Virus record (IMG/VR): IMGVR_UViG_3300046167_000259
Coordinates: 1 to 30,078 of that record
DNA from: a virus
Reading direction: 5' to 3' (one strand)
Length of the DNA: 30,078 nucleotides
The stretch's first letter is position 1; each line of letters begins with the position of its first letter. This document shows, piece after piece, positions 16,436 to 27,219 of the stretch. A program made the position numbers and the translations under genes. The notes beneath the pieces were generated by a model. It saw only the letters and a list, made by a program, of their open reading frames with translations. It was not told the origin of the DNA and made no database searches.

Positions 16436-17386
16436 TTATGAGTAATAAGAGATCTCCTCTAATAACCCAACTTGCACTCCCATTTTGAAACGAGCCACAA
16501 ATCGTACATTTTGATCTCCTAATGTATCAGCAGTATCAATCAATCTTAGATCTGATAAATCTCCCTGCACTCCCATTCCAAAGAAAAGGTTTGATGATGT
16601 TGCACCAACCATATCATTTGAAGGTAAACCAGGAGCATTGAATACTGGAATCCCATCAAAAGTTAAAGATGCAGATCCATCATACCATGTTGATCCTTTT
16701 GCATCAACACCAGAGCCACCAACTCCATTTGCTTGGAATCCTCCTAATGCTCTAAGATATTTTTGGAATATGTTGTTAGAAACATAAATCTTTAAATCTG
16801 GATCATCTAATAATGCAGGAGTATTAGCAGAGATATTATCAACCACTTTTGCCATCTCATCAATAACATTTGATGCAGTAATTGTTGTTCCAGTAATAAC
16901 TGATCCTCCTGCTAAATCTGATGCATTTGCTCCAAAGATTGTTGTAAATCCATCAACCTCTCCAGATGTTCCATTTGTACCCTGCCAGATAACTCTCTCA
17001 ACATGAGCAGAGATCTTTGCGATGTAATGCTGAACAATGTAATCTGCAAAAGATTTTGGCAATATCTCATTTGGAACAGAATATCCCATTTCAGCAGATT
17101 GCCATGCTTGAGCAAAAGTCTTTTTACATTCAGTTTTGTTGATTTGGAATTCCTCAACTTGCAATACTCTCTCTGTTAAAGTCAATGTTCCTGCATCAGT
17201 ATAATCACAAGTTGCATCAACGATAAAATCAGAGCCAGTTGCAACCTTTTGAATAACCTCTTTGTAAGCTACATTTCCATAAATTGTAACCCCTCCATTA
17301 TCCAAAGTTTTTCCACTTATTAAACCAGCAGAGATGTATTTGTCTTTAAACTCTCCTGCATAAGTTGTTGTTAATGATGTTGCCAT
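16436..17386 (-). CDS. Major capsid protein
   Basis: A 316-aa protein directly after the scaffold-like gene. It starts M-A-T-S-L-T-T-T-Y-A-G-E, has a long middle helix area (F-A-D-Y-I-V-Q-H-Y-I-A-K-I-S-A-H-V-E-R), a beta-rich centre with D-L-K-I-Y-V-S-N-N-I-F-Q-K-Y-L-R near 200-215, and ends in R-F-V-A-R-F-K-M-G-V-Q-V-G. These are usual features of HK97-fold capsid proteins of Bacteroidetes phages (late strand with R-x-x-x-R-F-K and a Gly-Val end). The N-terminus has no long delta domain; a separate scaffold fits that. A strong terminator follows. Confidence 0.85.
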   Translation of the reverse strand: MATSLTTTYAGEFKDKYISAGLISGKTLDNGGVTIYGNVAYKEVIQKVATGSDFIVDATCDYTDAGTLTLTERVLQVEEFQINKTECKKTFAQAWQSAEMGYSVPNEILPKSFADYIVQHYIAKISAHVERVIWQGTNGTSGEVDGFTTIFGANASDLAGGSVITGTTITASNVIDEMAKVVDNISANTPALLDDPDLKIYVSNNIFQKYLRALGGFQANGVGGSGVDAKGSTWYDGSASLTFDGIPVFNAPGLPSNDMVGATSSNLFFGMGVQGDLSDLRLIDTADTLGDQNVRFVARFKMGVQVGLLEEISYYS

Positions 17387-17406: not shown

Positions 17407-18030
17407 TTATGCGTTTAATTTTTGAAATATTCTATTTTGTAATGTTGGAGCAAATGCCTTGTTATAAACTGGAGCATTTTTATCAACCATTTCTGGATTG
17501 TGATGAAATGGCTCTGCTTCTAATTCAACCTTAGATAACTCCTCTTTTTTAACTTCATTTTCAGCTTTTAATTCAGCTAATATTTCAGCTTTCAATTCAG
17601 CTTTTAATTCTGATAACTTAGTTTCAATGATCTCTGATTGCTCTGCTGAAAAATGAGTTTCTTTTGTAACTGATTCAACAACTTTTTTTGGAGCAGAAAT
17701 TTCCTCTTTTGCCTCAACTTCAACTTCATCCTCTTTTGCCTCTGTTTCCTCTGGAGTTTCCTCTGGAGTTTCCTCTGCCTTTTCTTTTATCTCTGCAATA
17801 ACACCCTCCTCTGCAACAACTAAAACTTTTCCATCTGCCATTTGATATTCTCCAACTGGCAATGCAATTCTCTCCTCCTCATTAACAATGAAAACTTCTT
17901 TTCCTGCCTCTAAAGATTCAGCCTCAATGATTGTTCCATTTTCCAAAGTTTCTTGAGCCAGTTTAATTTCTGCTGATAATTCAACTCCTAAAACTTCTCT
18001 TATTTTATTTACTACATCAGTTGCTTTCAT
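17407..18030 (-). CDS. Scaffold-like protein ending in the IFxKLN motif
   Basis: The 207-aa protein lies 20 bases before the capsid gene. Residues 1-80 form a small beta domain (I-I-E-A-E-S-L-E-A-G-K-E-V-F, D-G-K-V-L-V-V-A-E-E-G-V). Residues about 85-125 are low-complexity, glutamate-rich (E-E-T-P-E-E-T-P-E-E-T-E). A long charged coiled coil follows, and the last residues are N-R-I-F-Q-K-L-N-A. High charge, coiled coil and gene position all fit an internal scaffold. Its end is the same motif found at the start of four proteins encoded at 18729-20078. I infer that this end binds the capsid protein. Confidence 0.75.
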   Translation of the reverse strand: MKATDVVNKIREVLGVELSAEIKLAQETLENGTIIEAESLEAGKEVFIVNEEERIALPVGEYQMADGKVLVVAEEGVIAEIKEKAEETPEETPEETEAKEDEVEVEAKEEISAPKKVVESVTKETHFSAEQSEIIETKLSELKAELKAEILAELKAENEVKKEELSKVELEAEPFHHNPEMVDKNAPVYNKAFAPTLQNRIFQKLNA

Positions 18031-18049
18031 GAAATGATATTTTTTCCTC

Positions 18050-18081
18050 TATTTACTAATACAACAAAAATTGATCTTGTT
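18050..18081 (-). promoter_or_regulatory. 32-bp late-promoter-like element, copy 3 (scaffold-capsid)
   Basis: On the - strand the element reads AACAAGATCAATTTTT followed by GTTGTATTAGTAAATA. The second half matches 16 of 16 bases in the copy at 28248-28279 and 15 of 16 in that at 21030-21061. It lies 20 bases before the scaffold ATG, with GAGG in between as a possible ribosome site. Confidence 0.65.
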
Positions 18082-18104
18082 TGCACTTTTTATTAACAAT
18101 GTTA

Positions 18105-18248
18105 TTATGCTTGGTTTTTTCCTATGCCTTGAGCATGGAGAGTTCCATCACAACATTTGGTTGAATATTTTCCATCTTTGCATAAACATCCCCTTTTGGA
18201 ATTCTTTGGAGATGTTCTGGATGGATTTGTAAACTTTCCTTTTTTCAT
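18105..18248 (-). CDS. 47-aa cysteine-rich peptide of head region
   Basis: ATG 18248-18246 overlaps the TAA of the gene before (TAATG); stop TAA 18107-18105. The product is very basic at the start (M-K-K-G-K-F-T-N-P-S-R-T-S-P-K), then R-G-C-L-C-K-D-G-K-Y-S, K-C-C-D-G and A-Q-G-I-G. I recall the C-L-C ... C-C-D-G ... A-Q-G-I-G pattern from other Bacteroidetes phage genomes, as a short gene or as a tail on structural proteins. The four cysteines could bind zinc or form disulfides in the virion. Function unknown. Confidence 0.65.
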   Translation of the reverse strand: MKKGKFTNPSRTSPKNSKRGCLCKDGKYSTKCCDGTLHAQGIGKNQA

Positions 18249-18724
18249 TATGATGGGCATGATATTGTTGCAGTCCAACTATTATTTGGCAATGGAGAAT
18301 AAACCCTTAATTGAGCAGTTGATGTTGCAGATGATTTTGTGAATGATGCAGATCCAGATCCAACCCCTTGAATTGTTTCAGATGGTAAACCTAAATTTGC
18401 CAATGCTTGATCCAGATCAGATTGAGCAGTTGATCCTCCTCTGTAACCAGTATCAATAACTTTTGCTCCATCAAACCATAATTCAAACTTATCTGGAACA
18501 TTTTGAGCATTAAAAGTTAATGTTACAGATCCAGTATTTGATCCGAGTTCTATGTTGTGATATGATGGGAATGCAACTCCTCCAGAATATGATGCCTCAA
18601 CACCACAATCAACTTGTTCCACTAAACAATCTGGAGCAGATTCATTCTGGATTGAATGCTTATTATCTACATCCCCCCAATTGCTTGAGCAATAAACTTT
18701 TCCCCAATCAGATGTATTTGCCAT
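18248..18724 (-). CDS. Putative virion or decoration protein, 158 aa
   Basis: A beta-rich protein: W-G-K-V-Y-C-S-S-N-W-G-D-V near the start, C-L-V-E-Q-V-D-C, G-S-V-T-L-T-F-N-A-Q-N-V-P-D-K-F-E-L-W-F-D-G-A-K-V near residues 72-96, and a C-terminal domain S-A-S-F-T-K-S-S-A with R-V-Y-S-P-L-P. The central VTLTF / PDKFE-x-W-F-x-G part resembles a jelly-roll-like binding domain. It lacks the IFxKLN start of the four genes before it, so it is probably on the outside of the head or a fibre. Assignment by position only. Confidence 0.6.
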   Translation of the reverse strand: MANTSDWGKVYCSSNWGDVDNKHSIQNESAPDCLVEQVDCGVEASYSGGVAFPSYHNIELGSNTGSVTLTFNAQNVPDKFELWFDGAKVIDTGYRGGSTAQSDLDQALANLGLPSETIQGVGSGSASFTKSSATSTAQLRVYSPLPNNSWTATISCPS

Positions 18725-18728
18725 TAGA

Positions 18729-19046
18729 TTATATTGAGTTTAAACCTTTAACTAATTTTTCAATTTCTGTTATATTTTTTAATATTTGATTTTCCTGCTT
18801 TTGTATAATTTTTAATACATCAGATGCTCCTAATTCTATTGCTAAGTTTTTTGTTCTCTCAATTTTTTTTAATAAAGTTTTATTTAATTTTAGCGATTTT
18901 TCAGCTTGAGGAATTGCCTTGTATATCATATCAATCACAGAAATAGCACCTTGATTTGCTTGTTTCATTTCGCTTTTGATATCTTCAACCAAACCAAATT
19001 CAACTCTCTCTGGATGTGCGTTTAATTTTTCAAATATTTTTCTCAT
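18729..19046 (-). CDS. IFxKLN-motif small protein D (coiled coil), 105 aa
   Basis: Starts M-R-K-I-F-E-K-L-N-A-H-P-E-R-V-E-F, the shared motif of the head block, and is otherwise wholly helical: A-I-P-Q-A-E-K-S-L-K-L-N-K-T-L-L-K-K-I-E-R and a second long helix to the end. The body resembles that of 19366-19725 in style, with lysine-rich coiled coil. Probably loaded in the prohead together with the scaffold. No enzyme motif. Confidence 0.72.
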   Translation of the reverse strand: MRKIFEKLNAHPERVEFGLVEDIKSEMKQANQGAISVIDMIYKAIPQAEKSLKLNKTLLKKIERTKNLAIELGASDVLKIIQKQENQILKNITEIEKLVKGLNSI

Positions 19047-19050
19047 TGTA

Positions 19051-19362
19051 TTATCTTTTTATTGGTATGCAGTTTGGAACAAGTTTTCCATTTTTCATTT
19101 TCATGCCATATTGCTCATATCCTTTTGAGCATGGCTTTTTTAAATTATGTTGTTCACATGGCATAAACCATGTTTTACCCTCAAACTCATGCTCATGATA
19201 TTTATCACATCCCAGATCCTCTGCAACTGCAATTGCCATCTCTTTTGTTGCATAAGCCAATCTCCCATCAATAACTGCCATGTTATCATCAATCACTTTG
19301 TTTTCTAAAACAACCTCATTTGAATCTGCATTTAGCTTTGCGAATATTTTCTTATTGCCCAT
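19051..19362 (-). CDS. IFxKLN-motif small protein C, 103 aa
   Basis: Starts M-G-N-K-K-I-F-A-K-L-N-A-D-S-N-E-V-V-L. After it come D-G-R-L-A-Y-A-T-K-E-M-A-I-A-V-A-E-D-L-G, E-G-K-T-W-F-M-P-C, and a C-terminal C-S-K-G-Y-E-Q-Y-G-M-K-M-K-N-G and V-P-N-C-I-P-I-K. The GMKMKxGKxVPNCIP end is a pattern I know from head genes of many phages, where it occurs as a small separate domain. Three cysteines at conserved-looking places may bind a metal. It lies 4 bases before the gene for protein D. Confidence 0.75.
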   Translation of the reverse strand: MGNKKIFAKLNADSNEVVLENKVIDDNMAVIDGRLAYATKEMAIAVAEDLGCDKYHEHEFEGKTWFMPCEQHNLKKPCSKGYEQYGMKMKNGKLVPNCIPIKR

Positions 19363-19365
19363 CTT

Positions 19366-19725
19366 TTATAAAATTTTTGAGATTTCTTTTTGTTTCTCTT
19401 TTACATTAGATATTGCACTCAATAAGATCTTTTTTATCTCTTGAAATTGTTGATATTGTTTTGATGATCTGAAATCAACTCCAATCTCCTCTGCTTTTGA
19501 TCCAAATTCATCCATGAGTTTTTCTGCATCTTGCAGGATATTATACAATGAAACTGAATAAGCATCAGCAGATGATTTTGCTTTATTTATTCCAATTCTG
19601 TATTCTGATCTATATTCTGAAAATGCTTTATCAAACTGATTTTTAAATCCTACAAAATCATATTTTGACAACTCAACTCTCTCTGGATCTTTATTAAGTT
19701 TGGTAAAAATGTTTTTTAATGCCAT
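19366..19725 (-). CDS. IFxKLN-motif small protein B (coiled coil), 119 aa
   Basis: Starts M-A-L-K-N-I-F-T-K-L-N-K-D-P-E-R-V-E-L-S, the fullest form of the motif. The remainder is helical: F-K-N-Q-F-D-K-A-F-S-E-Y-R-S-E-Y and I-L-Q-D-A-E-K-L-M-D-E-F-G-S-K-A-E-E-I. Protein D aligns with it both in the motif and in the pattern N-I-L-Q-D-A-E-K / A-I-P-Q-A-E-K-S, so they are probably paralogues. Overlaps the start of gene A by one base. Confidence 0.75.
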   Translation of the reverse strand: MALKNIFTKLNKDPERVELSKYDFVGFKNQFDKAFSEYRSEYRIGINKAKSSADAYSVSLYNILQDAEKLMDEFGSKAEEIGVDFRSSKQYQQFQEIKKILLSAISNVKEKQKEISKIL

Positions 19726-20078
19726 TATTCTATTATTTTAAGTTCTTTTAGTTTTGATTCACTCCATCTCTTTCCTGCTTTGCCTCCCCATAATAAGAAT
19801 GAGATTGTTCCACAAGCATTGGAATCTGATTCATCATAATATTCTTCTGCTCTGGAGAGATATGAATACATTCTTTTGATTGTTTTTACTGATATTGCCT
19901 CTTTTTGTGCTAATTGCTTTGCTCTAACTTTGCCAGTTTGAGTTGCACATTTATTCCCATTTTTCTCATTCAGATCAATCCCTCTTTTTGCATTGTTAGA
20001 AACTGCATCTGGATAATCCTTGTATGATTCCAACTCAACAACATTCAGTTTTTGATATATTTTTTTGAGATTAATCAT
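19725..20078 (-). CDS. IFxKLN-motif small protein A, 117 aa
   Basis: Starts M-I-N-L-K-K-I-Y-Q-K-L-N-V-V-E-L-E-S-Y, with Y for F. The body is a domain seen repeatedly in phage head genes: Y-P-D-A-V-S-N-N-A-K-R-G-I-D, C-A-T-Q-T-G-K-V-R-A-K-Q-L-A, I-S-V-K-T-I-K-R-M-Y-S-Y-L, then C-G-T-I-S-F-L-L-W-G-G-K-A-G and W-S-E-S-K-L-K. In other phages this domain is often fused to proteases or head proteins. I know no function. It starts 1 base after the prohead protease stop. Confidence 0.78.
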   Translation of the reverse strand: MINLKKIYQKLNVVELESYKDYPDAVSNNAKRGIDLNEKNGNKCATQTGKVRAKQLAQKEAISVKTIKRMYSYLSRAEEYYDESDSNACGTISFLLWGGKAGKRWSESKLKELKIIE

Positions 20079-20079
20079 C

Positions 20080-21030
20080 TTACTTGAGCATATTCAAACA
20101 TTGTTTCAATTCAGCAATATGCCTATCAATAACTTTTATGCTCATTCTGGCTTGGTTTTTTAAACCATCATTTTTTTTATCAAGATCTTGAGCCAATCCA
20201 TTATCCAGATTCTTAACCTTATCTAAACGATCATCATACAATGCAATTGAAACTATGTATTGGTTTTTTAAGTTCTCCAGATCTTGAATAATTCCTGCCA
20301 GATGCTTTCTGCCTAATTGATTGATCTTATTCTCTTGAGATGCAGTTTGATCAAGTTTATTTTGTACTGGTCTGAAATAATTCAGATCCATTTTATGCTT
20401 TGCAAGTTTGGTTTGTAATTCATCCATCTCCAGAATATTCATGATATCCTTGAGTTGATCCTCTGCAATCTGATCTTTGCTCATATTGTCTTTTATACTT
20501 TCTTTTGGTCTTTCAGCCTTATCAATGAAATATCCCTCTATTGAGAACCCTCGTACTAACCCCTCTTTCACGTAGTTATTCCAGATCTTATCATTGTTCA
20601 CTTTCATTGATCCCATCCATGTGCCTTTGTTGATACCCTCTAAACCATATTTTTTTGATTTATCCATCTCTGGATCATCAACAATCCATGATTCAACCAG
20701 AGTTATATCAGAGATCTTTTCCTTATGCTCCAAAGTTGCTTGATCTTGATACCCATTCATGAGATATAATTCAGATGCTTTTTTGATCGTATTTGCAGAG
20801 AAATAAACATAATACTCTTTATCTCCAGATTTTCTGTAAATAGGCTTATTAGGGATTAAAACTGCTCCCATTAAGATCCTTTGCTCCTTATCTACTTCTG
20901 CAAATTTTATTTCATGTGATTTTAATGCAATGAAATCTGATTCAATTGCACCTTGAGAAACAACTGAAATTGCTTCAACTCCAGATTGCTCAACATTTTC
21001 CTCATCAATTAATAATTCTATTATCTCCAT
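20080..21030 (-). CDS. Prohead protease of XkdF type
   Basis: A 316-aa protein whose first 180 residues match the XkdF-like serine protease pattern: I-S-V-V-S-Q-G-A-I near 23, R-I-L-M-G-A-V-L-I-P-N-K-P-I-Y-R near 52, Y-Y-V-Y-F-S-A-N-T-I, then Q-A-T-L-E-H-K, the likely catalytic histidine at about 102, V-E-S-W-I-V-D-D-P, and R-G-F-S-I-E-G-Y-F with the probable catalytic serine at about 166. The second half is helical and may serve in assembly. It should cut scaffold and other internal proteins during head maturation. It opens the head block under its own late element. Confidence 0.85.
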   Translation of the reverse strand: MEIIELLIDEENVEQSGVEAISVVSQGAIESDFIALKSHEIKFAEVDKEQRILMGAVLIPNKPIYRKSGDKEYYVYFSANTIKKASELYLMNGYQDQATLEHKEKISDITLVESWIVDDPEMDKSKKYGLEGINKGTWMGSMKVNNDKIWNNYVKEGLVRGFSIEGYFIDKAERPKESIKDNMSKDQIAEDQLKDIMNILEMDELQTKLAKHKMDLNYFRPVQNKLDQTASQENKINQLGRKHLAGIIQDLENLKNQYIVSIALYDDRLDKVKNLDNGLAQDLDKKNDGLKNQARMSIKVIDRHIAELKQCLNMLK

Positions 21031-26208: not shown

Positions 26209-26764
26209 TTTCTGTTATCTTTTAATGTTGTTGTTAAAAACTCTTTTACATCCAATGAAAATCCCTCTGTTATCTCTTTTGGGAGATCCTTGAATGCTCT
26301 CTCAAATGGCTTAGTAAAAAACAATGATGCCTTGATCCCTTTTTGATATATTGATCTGGCAATGGCAAATTTGAGAGATGATCTGGATATGAATTGCCCT
26401 TTGTCATTTCTGATTCCATCCAAATCTTTTTTTTACCATCCATTTATCAAATGCCCTTGTTGGAGGAACAACCCTTGCATCTTTTTTGTAAGGATTTGGA
26501 TGTTGCTTATAAGAGAATATTGAATTTCTGTTTTCAATGTAATTGCTCTTTGTTCCTTTTACTCCCTTATCTTGATAAACTCCATAATCCTCCATTGAGA
26601 ATGTAACTTGGATTGAGTTCTTAGATGCATTAGTTTCATATCCTAAAGATTCGTACAATCTCCCAGATGTGTTTTTTTTCGTCTCTGGTTAAATTGGCTC
26701 TGGATTGTGCAATTACTCTTTTTGCAAATCTCTCCAATTCCTCTTTTGTTTTCTGGAGTTCCAT
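26205..26764 (-). pseudogene. HK97 gp10-like tail completion protein, interrupted by two frameshifts
   Basis: Three overlapping reading frames join into one familiar protein of about 185 aa. Frame 1 starts at ATG 26764-26762 (TAATG overlap with the gene before): M-E-L-Q-K-T-K-E-E-L to R-A-N-L-T-R-D-E-K. Frame 2 gives K-N-T-S-G-R-L-Y-E-S-L-G-Y, E-D-Y-G-V-Y-Q-D-K-G-V and P-P-T-R-A-F-D-K-W-M-V-K-K. Frame 3 gives G-I-R-N-D-K-G-Q-F-I-S-R-S-S-L-K-F-A-I-A. The two changes fall in A8 runs (26672-26679 and 26427-26434); each is one base too long. Such proteins close the neck or tail end. Confidence 0.7.
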
Positions 26765-27219
26765 TAGCAGATTGTCATATCATTTGCAACTAAAACATTG
26801 AATGAGATAGTCCATCCTCCAACTGCATTTGTGAACCGATCTGTAAATGCTTCACAACTTGCATCTCCAACAATTTCAATTCCATCTTGAAATAATGTTC
26901 CTCTTTTGAGTTGAGCAACCAGTTTTGATCCAACTGCTAATTGAGTATTCAAAACATCATGCTCATTGTTGTTTAATCTGTAATCATCATCCTGCTCCTC
27001 TTTTGAATCATTGATCAGATCCATGAGAATAACAGATACATTAAATGATGTTGTTTGCTCTGTTAATACTGCATTATCAACCATCACATGAGCCAATGGA
27101 TATAAATTCTGCTTATTAAGATCAACATCAAATATGCTTCCAAATGTTATTGTTTTTACAAATGGCTCAATTGCCAATGCATCCTTGATCTTTGATGTAA
27201 CATGATAATATTGTTTCAT
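26764..27219 (-). CDS. Putative tail terminator / completion protein, 151 aa
   Basis: Alpha/beta protein: M-K-Q-Y-Y-H-V-T-S-K-I-K-D-A-L, F-V-K-T-I-T-F-G, Y-P-L-A-H-V-M-V-D-N-A-V, F-N-V-S-V-I-L-M-D-L and, at the end, G-G-W-T-I-S-F-N-V-L-V-A-N-D. The order of helix, strand, Y-P-L-x-H, strand with V-x-L-x-D-x-x, and a last G-W-x-x-x-F-x-V fits the tail terminator-like proteins found in Bacteroidetes phages between the connector and tail genes. Overlaps by 4 bases with the gene before and by one base with the gp10-like gene after. Confidence 0.7.
   Translation of the reverse strand: MKQYYHVTSKIKDALAIEPFVKTITFGSIFDVDLNKQNLYPLAHVMVDNAVLTEQTTSFNVSVILMDLINDSKEEQDDDYRLNNNEHDVLNTQLAVGSKLVAQLKRGTLFQDGIEIVGDASCEAFTDRFTNAVGGWTISFNVLVANDMTIC

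Follow-up and report, generated by a model that had tools for sequence, protein, structure and literature searches.

A scaffold-tail-like leader on small head-block proteins of an uncultured phage: a candidate prohead-targeting tag

To our knowledge, capsid targeting signals have been described for few phages. Here we describe a candidate signal of this kind in IMG/VR virus record IMGVR_UViG_3300046167_000259, positions 1 to 30,078 (‘the window’: the whole 30,078-nucleotide stretch analyzed), DNA of an uncultured, marine-type phage. Four consecutive small genes in its head block begin with a short motif, I[FY]xKLN, in which the neighbouring scaffold-like protein ends. The leader that carries the motif is probably a prohead-targeting tag: it would dock in the manner of the scaffold tail, would probably be cut off by the prohead protease at its junction with the body, and would leave that body in the head.

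In T4, otherwise divergent small proteins have in common a short N-terminal leader of 10–20 residues, the capsid targeting sequence (CTS); the prohead protease, gp21, is encoded nearby, and the leader is thought to be removable (PMC9026906, PMC3012670, PMC5694885). The propeptides of SPN3US are functionally a close comparison (PMC5694885). In 80alpha, the short helix at the tail of the scaffold protein, SP, is found also in a second small protein, CpmB of SaPI1, where it binds the capsid protein; this RIIK helix is C-terminal in both proteins, and redirects capsid size (PMC5644958). In P1, the N-terminal 30 residues of DarB are enough to bring a reporter protein into the head; P1 has no separate scaffold protein, and its signal has not been presented as an imitation of scaffold (PMC9024508). 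Cargo has been loaded into engineered P22 nanocages by fusion to truncated scaffold protein, the scaffold end being the loading handle; these are man-made, the handle is C-terminal, and no cleavage step is described in the portion of the account available to us (PMC9962691). ‘Polyvalent’ proteins, finally, combine several domains in one polypeptide that is packaged and injected (PMC5512222).

By analogy, the window tag appears to work like the T4 sequences without being one of them. It, too, is a short leader on different small proteins (16–19 residues in the window; 62% leader identity versus 26% body identity between tagged genes of the same contig), with a prohead protease encoded nearby. 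It differs in that the gp21 site, [LI]xE, occurs in 0 of the 104 leaders described below, the protease is of the S78_2, XkdF type, the leader resembles the scaffold C-terminal tail, and cargo occurs also as protease fusions; no sequence homology between the T4 CTS and the window tag was shown. Unlike the 80alpha helix, it is N-terminal, reads I[FY]xKLN without RIIK, and stands on several different domains. Because it lacks a tested defining feature of each, we set the tag apart from the T4 and 80alpha kinds, as a variant form of prohead targeting. If it acts as we propose, it would be, by analogy, a natural version of, and counterpart to, the engineered P22 handle. With regard to the polyvalent proteins, three domains (A, C and a coiled coil, discussed later) are strung in tandem behind the protease in relatives, and might be packaged and injected. 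The open-access literature yielded no account of a targeting signal that imitates the scaffold tail of the same phage and, as the initial annotation had supposed, no description of the motif.

One motif at four gene starts and a scaffold end

The four small genes and the gene for the scaffold-like protein are all present as open reading frames (ORFs) on the minus strand, with the motif disposed as follows.

20031–20078, minus strand: leader MINLKKIYQKLNVVEL of gene 19725–20078; motif IYQKLN at 20043–20060 (direct reading)
19669–19725, minus strand: leader MALKNIFTKLNKDPERVEL of coiled-coil gene 19366–19725; motif IFTKLN at 19693–19710
19306–19362, minus strand: leader MGNKKIFAKLNADSNEVVL of gene 19051–19362; motif IFAKLN at 19330–19347
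18996–19046, minus strand: leader MRKIFEKLNAHPERVEF of coiled-coil gene 18729–19046; motif IFEKLN at 19020–19037
17410–17433, minus strand: scaffold C-terminal helix RIFQKLNA (ORF end NRIFQKLNA), from the sequence and an AlphaFold2 (AF2) model (helix 197–206)

That four consecutive genes start alike, and that the scaffold ends in the same motif, had been noticed in the initial annotation, and the ORF coordinates, a pattern count and shuffling all bear it out. Even when relaxed to [IVL][FY]x[KR]LN, the pattern has no match in the window (35 ORFs and 8,224 residues examined) outside the four gene starts and the scaffold end. When each protein was shuffled 20,000 times, I[FY]xKLN appeared within the first 14 residues of more than one gene in 0 of 20,000 shuffles, and of one gene in 20. 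The V-E-L segment that follows is conserved as strongly as KLN, and is part of the same feature. Codons vary among the copies (Leu is CTG, CTT, CTA or TTA; Asn, AAT or AAC; Ile, ATA or ATT), and because synonymous codons differ in this way, the similarity lies at the protein level and recent copying of the motif as DNA is ruled out.

Short motifs do arise by chance: the literal pattern M[KR]KI[FY]xKLN has 22 matches in IMG/VR DNA, mostly in very short or out-of-frame ORFs, and none is a head-block tag. Chance resemblance is refuted statistically here by the presence of the motif in four genes and a scaffold in one window, by shuffles that never reach two genes, and by the family-wide leader–tail signal described below, and we give it virtually no credence. 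By a striking coincidence, five of the 22 matches spell MKKIFLKLNxKVEL, but out of frame, where another scaffold-like gene ends (e.g. L046:7824–7865 and L056:7834–7875).

The row lies, as first proposed, between the XkdF-type prohead protease, identified by its profile match (listed later), and the scaffold–capsid pair. The gene bodies had been called otherwise different. This holds for 19725–20078 and 19051–19362, which encode two separate domains, but not for 19366–19725 and 18729–19046, both of which align with a single divergent family of coiled coils in relatives. A fifth ORF of the row, 18248–18724, is without the motif; its start resembles that of MSxFGKIYESSxWGVG genes located after the portal gene in relatives, and it may be a moved gene.

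Leaders and scaffold tails in relatives

Relatives were collected with the capsid protein as query (43 loci), with a scaffold alignment (at least 574 stretches, 80 kept) and with a coiled-coil alignment (124 relatives, 80 kept). A tail theme, R-[IV]-x-x-[KR]-[LIM], recurs in the scaffold family of at least 574 stretches; variants include RIYEKLNN, RVMAKLFN, SVLNKISNFK, RVLERIVNF and RVLSKMYNN. Tagged genes were selected by the element [KR][VI][ED]L[AGSE] within approximately the first 45 residues, the preceding sequence being left unconstrained. This yielded 104 distinct small genes on 81 contigs, from related phages that are for the most part uncultured. At least two of these genes (L234:187–642 and L226:2429–2884) are false positives that belong to phrog_30964, a family represented in the window by gene 26764–27219 and unrelated to the tagged genes. 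The common leader form, in approximately 100 small genes on the 81 contigs, is (I/V)xx-K-L-(N/F)...KTELxxHKVELA, and the median leader length in the family is approximately 20 residues. Seven residues before the selected element there is a second, for which no selection was made (KTEL in 68 of the 104, KTDL in nine). The commonest place for a tagged gene is immediately ahead of the scaffold gene (46/104), and leaders occur also at a second position, after the portal gene, where coiled-coil genes begin MKTIETVYxKLNxxKTxLxTHKVELS in L007, L008, L009, L011, L012, L019 and L020. Loci fetched without a tag query contain 39 tagged genes in 33 contigs, and among the 42 contigs where the context suffices, 13 have a tagged gene.

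Leaders resemble the scaffold tail of their own contig. For the 89 genes with a tail in the contig, the match scores 15.4, versus 9.0 for shuffled leaders (Wilcoxon p = 1e-15, which overstates the number of independent cases because many of the 81 contigs are related), and 92% of these leaders score above their own shuffles. Codon identity in same-contig pairs is near chance (0.62, versus 0.54 expected); because the leaders are similar while their synonymous codons are near chance, selection appears to act on the protein rather than the DNA. Adjacent genes that are alike at the start could also be relics of a duplicated ancestral 5′ gene end, or share a translation feature, with no targeting role, and gene duplication is common in phages. 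Yet the leader is kept while bodies differ and codons vary, it occurs at two genome positions, and its element is retained when a module is fused inside the protease; such an origin strikes us as very improbable.

Beyond these phages, a scan of 395 genomes of the phylum Bacteroidetes matched one contig of a metagenome-assembled genome (MAG) and, weakly, two more genomes, at whose loci there are no tags. The MAG contig, together with the flavobacterial host of the Nonlabens phages, is the host evidence.

Domains carried as tagged genes or as protease fusions

The strongest evidence for targeting, comparative in kind and short of proof, is a domain swap, every form of which places the domain with a head protein. 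Proteases of the L007 type end in domain A, the body of 19725–20078 in the window, followed by domain C, that of 19051–19362, at the joints IEL|ETYNDYPD and VNL. Across relatives, x-x-L|E-[ST]-Y nearly always precedes domain A, in the tagged and in most of the fused forms. A coiled coil that is tagged in relatives stands behind the L018 protease, after ATHKVEL; in L194, the protease-fused coiled coil ETDIATQKVELALVDD adjoins the tagged gene VNKRLFKKTELATHKVELGL; and in L156 a tag, SVYKALFSEQEPKKVEL (SVYKALF..KKVEL), is kept inside the protease fusion. Where domain A is free, on distant contigs, its leaders resemble their own scaffold tails (ILYALAD and FLYNLNK in L084; VLVKLEA and ILHTLNN in L077). 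Because the same domains occur tagged or protease-fused at the same x-x-L junction, tag and fusion are most simply read as interchangeable routes into the prohead. Homologues without the motif, which the initial annotation held would tell against its proposal, do exist, but they are protease-fused, and so support the targeting idea.

19725–20030, minus strand: domain A body (ESYKDYPDAV...KLKELKIIE); phrog_2859, E = 2e-10; fused to XkdF-type protease in relatives

Domain A is predicted to be a phage-only fold. Foldseek matched viral proteins only, none of them in the Protein Data Bank (PDB), and those matches bear the names XkdF, prohead protease, portal, gp29-like, ParB, Dps, HAD and Tudor. 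By sequence, relatives occur in Vibrio phages and haloarchaeal viruses, among others, and many viruses have the domain joined to a prohead protease or a portal. Domain C, which with a KNGKLVPNCIP end forms the body of 19051–19362, occurs in portal-like proteins of relatives (L148:10282–12207, L160:12695–14626 and L077:15129–17144). No convincing function for the tagged bodies emerged from Pfam, NCBIfam, PHROGs or the PDB. In the AF2 model of tagged domain A the body is confident, and the leader helix (residues 4–16) is less so and ends at the junction, as expected of a disposable leader.

In the manner of T4 core proteins or SaPI1 CpmB, tagged proteins might instead be auxiliary scaffold or core components: during assembly they would bind the capsid by the tag and adjust its size or curvature, to be degraded or expelled afterwards. 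Many of the bodies are short, divergent coiled coils, the tagged genes mostly adjoin the scaffold gene, and a capsid-binding C-terminal helix is common to the 80alpha scaffold and CpmB (PMC5644958). We regard this as unlikely. Domains A and C are compact, conserved, and portal- or protease-fused elsewhere; tagged genes vary in number among close relatives (none in L003–L005, two in L007), which would be odd for an essential part of the scaffold; and because the candidate cut element is not clearly enriched in the bodies (29 versus 21 expected), their wholesale degradation is mildly disfavoured.

Docking, cleavage and the head block

As a targeting tag, the leader would form a short amphipathic helix, like that at the scaffold C-terminus, and dock the protein at a scaffold-recruiting site, on the capsid shell or the scaffold core. 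Formation of the prohead would then enclose the docked protein; the XkdF-type protease, which is also on the inside, would probably cut at the conserved (V/I)-x-L junction; and the body so freed would stay in the head, perhaps to be injected. Cargo domains would move in evolution between two equivalent routes, the leader and fusion to the protease end. The proposal of the initial annotation that the tag brings cargo into the prohead is well supported by comparison as far as leader targeting goes, since the same domains carry the tag or else are joined to protease or portal, and the leaders resemble their own scaffold tail. Conservation of the junction fits a cleavage site. That the motif was copied from the scaffold end, as also suggested, is not established, similar helices being found at the scaffold N-terminus and the protease C-terminus.

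Those helices bear also on the docking partner, which could be the scaffold core or the protease rather than the capsid, a single type of helix being in use across the prohead core. The scaffold N-terminal leader has LNKIKxIIGVEL, and where a protease has no cargo fused to it, its end may read LLSKIKSILNK or LVKNIIEILNA; short, tag-like end helices such as IKSIITNAEINK, NQIKQILK and KNIIEILNA are seen in proteases of this kind (L200:6557–7147, L195:1656–2240 and L089:8959–9540). In T4, the targeting propeptides have been described to interact with proteins of the core (PMC9026906). Against this, leaders match the scaffold C-terminal tail, KLN with KLN included, and the 80alpha scaffold C-terminal helices bind capsid protein (PMC5644958). 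Core docking is a possibility we hold only tentatively; being a variant of the targeting tag that differs in partner, it overlaps with it in probability.

Several points weigh against the targeting tag as proposed. The partner need not be the capsid, given these helices; V-E-L could be a fold element instead of a cut site; and the T4-type site is absent from the leaders, as noted. The match of tail and leader is better within than between lineages (p = 0.0005–0.005, 17–26 lineages), yet p becomes 0.05 with one KLN lineage kept and 0.06–0.16 without KLN-tail lineages, so that the covariation, resting partly on KLN lineages, is suggestive only, and proof of co-evolution is not claimed. Assignment of the scaffold and capsid proteins rests on weak profile matches and genome position. 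And a tblastn search of cultured phages with the tagged coiled coil and the scaffold found no match, and no isolate with tagged genes was found.

More broadly, we see an even chance that this is a widespread cargo system of Bacteroidota phages, in which any protein becomes cargo by way of a helix that mimics the phage's own scaffold tail and a protease-cut junction, and domains shuttle between tagged genes and tandem protease fusions. If the tag acts as proposed, it would give a simple sequence rule to predict head-packaged proteins in uncultured phages and, for proteases of the XkdF type, a candidate rule of cleavage, and would point to domain A, fused to so many head proteins, as head cargo.

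The remaining features of the head block are these.

20080–21030, minus strand: XkdF-type prohead protease; Peptidase_S78_2, E = 2.7e-14
20083–20382, minus strand: coiled-coil module fused at the protease C-terminus, after junction AKHKMDL
17977–18030, minus strand: scaffold N-terminal leader MKATDVVNKIREVLGVEL; another helix that resembles the tag, with V-E-L
17407–18030, minus strand: scaffold-like protein, directly before the capsid gene; second half of phrog_24921 matched, E = 1.8e-7
16436–17386, minus strand: probable major capsid protein; phrog_11320, E = 1.9e-29, and genome position

The protease scores 53.7 bits against the Peptidase_S78_2 profile (curated cutoff 24), and a close relative of it matches the head maturation protease family phrog_3017. 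Its junction, AKHKMDL, may be compared with ATHKVELNF in the L018 protease and ...THKVELS in tagged genes. The scaffold was tentatively assigned by position, by its coiled coil, and by fusion to the protease in phrog_24921, a single PHROG family whose two halves are matched by the window protease and scaffold. This family, from Nonlabens phages P12024S/L, thus has homologous halves but joins them in one polypeptide (349 residues in P12024S), and tagged genes were not found in the annotated region examined. The AF2 scaffold model, from seven aligned scaffolds, runs from an N-terminal helix through a beta domain, a flexible part and a long helix to the C-terminal helix, 197–206, that holds RIFQKLN; overall model confidence is 65, and pLDDT (predicted local distance difference test) is 76 and 87 in the last blocks. 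Scaffold tail and leader are thus both predicted to be terminal helices. In the comparison with HK97-type heads, which have a recognizable major capsid protein with a separate scaffold upstream, the link of the capsid protein to major head profiles is weak (E = 0.0045 in the window, similar in relatives), and no credible relative was found in the PDB. Many relatives also have, between protease and scaffold, a small Cys-rich protein, TSPK..RGCLC..TY...CC.G.L..QGIG (e.g. L007:9126–9272, L021:3069–3269 and L164:9383–9586), which was not seen in the window.

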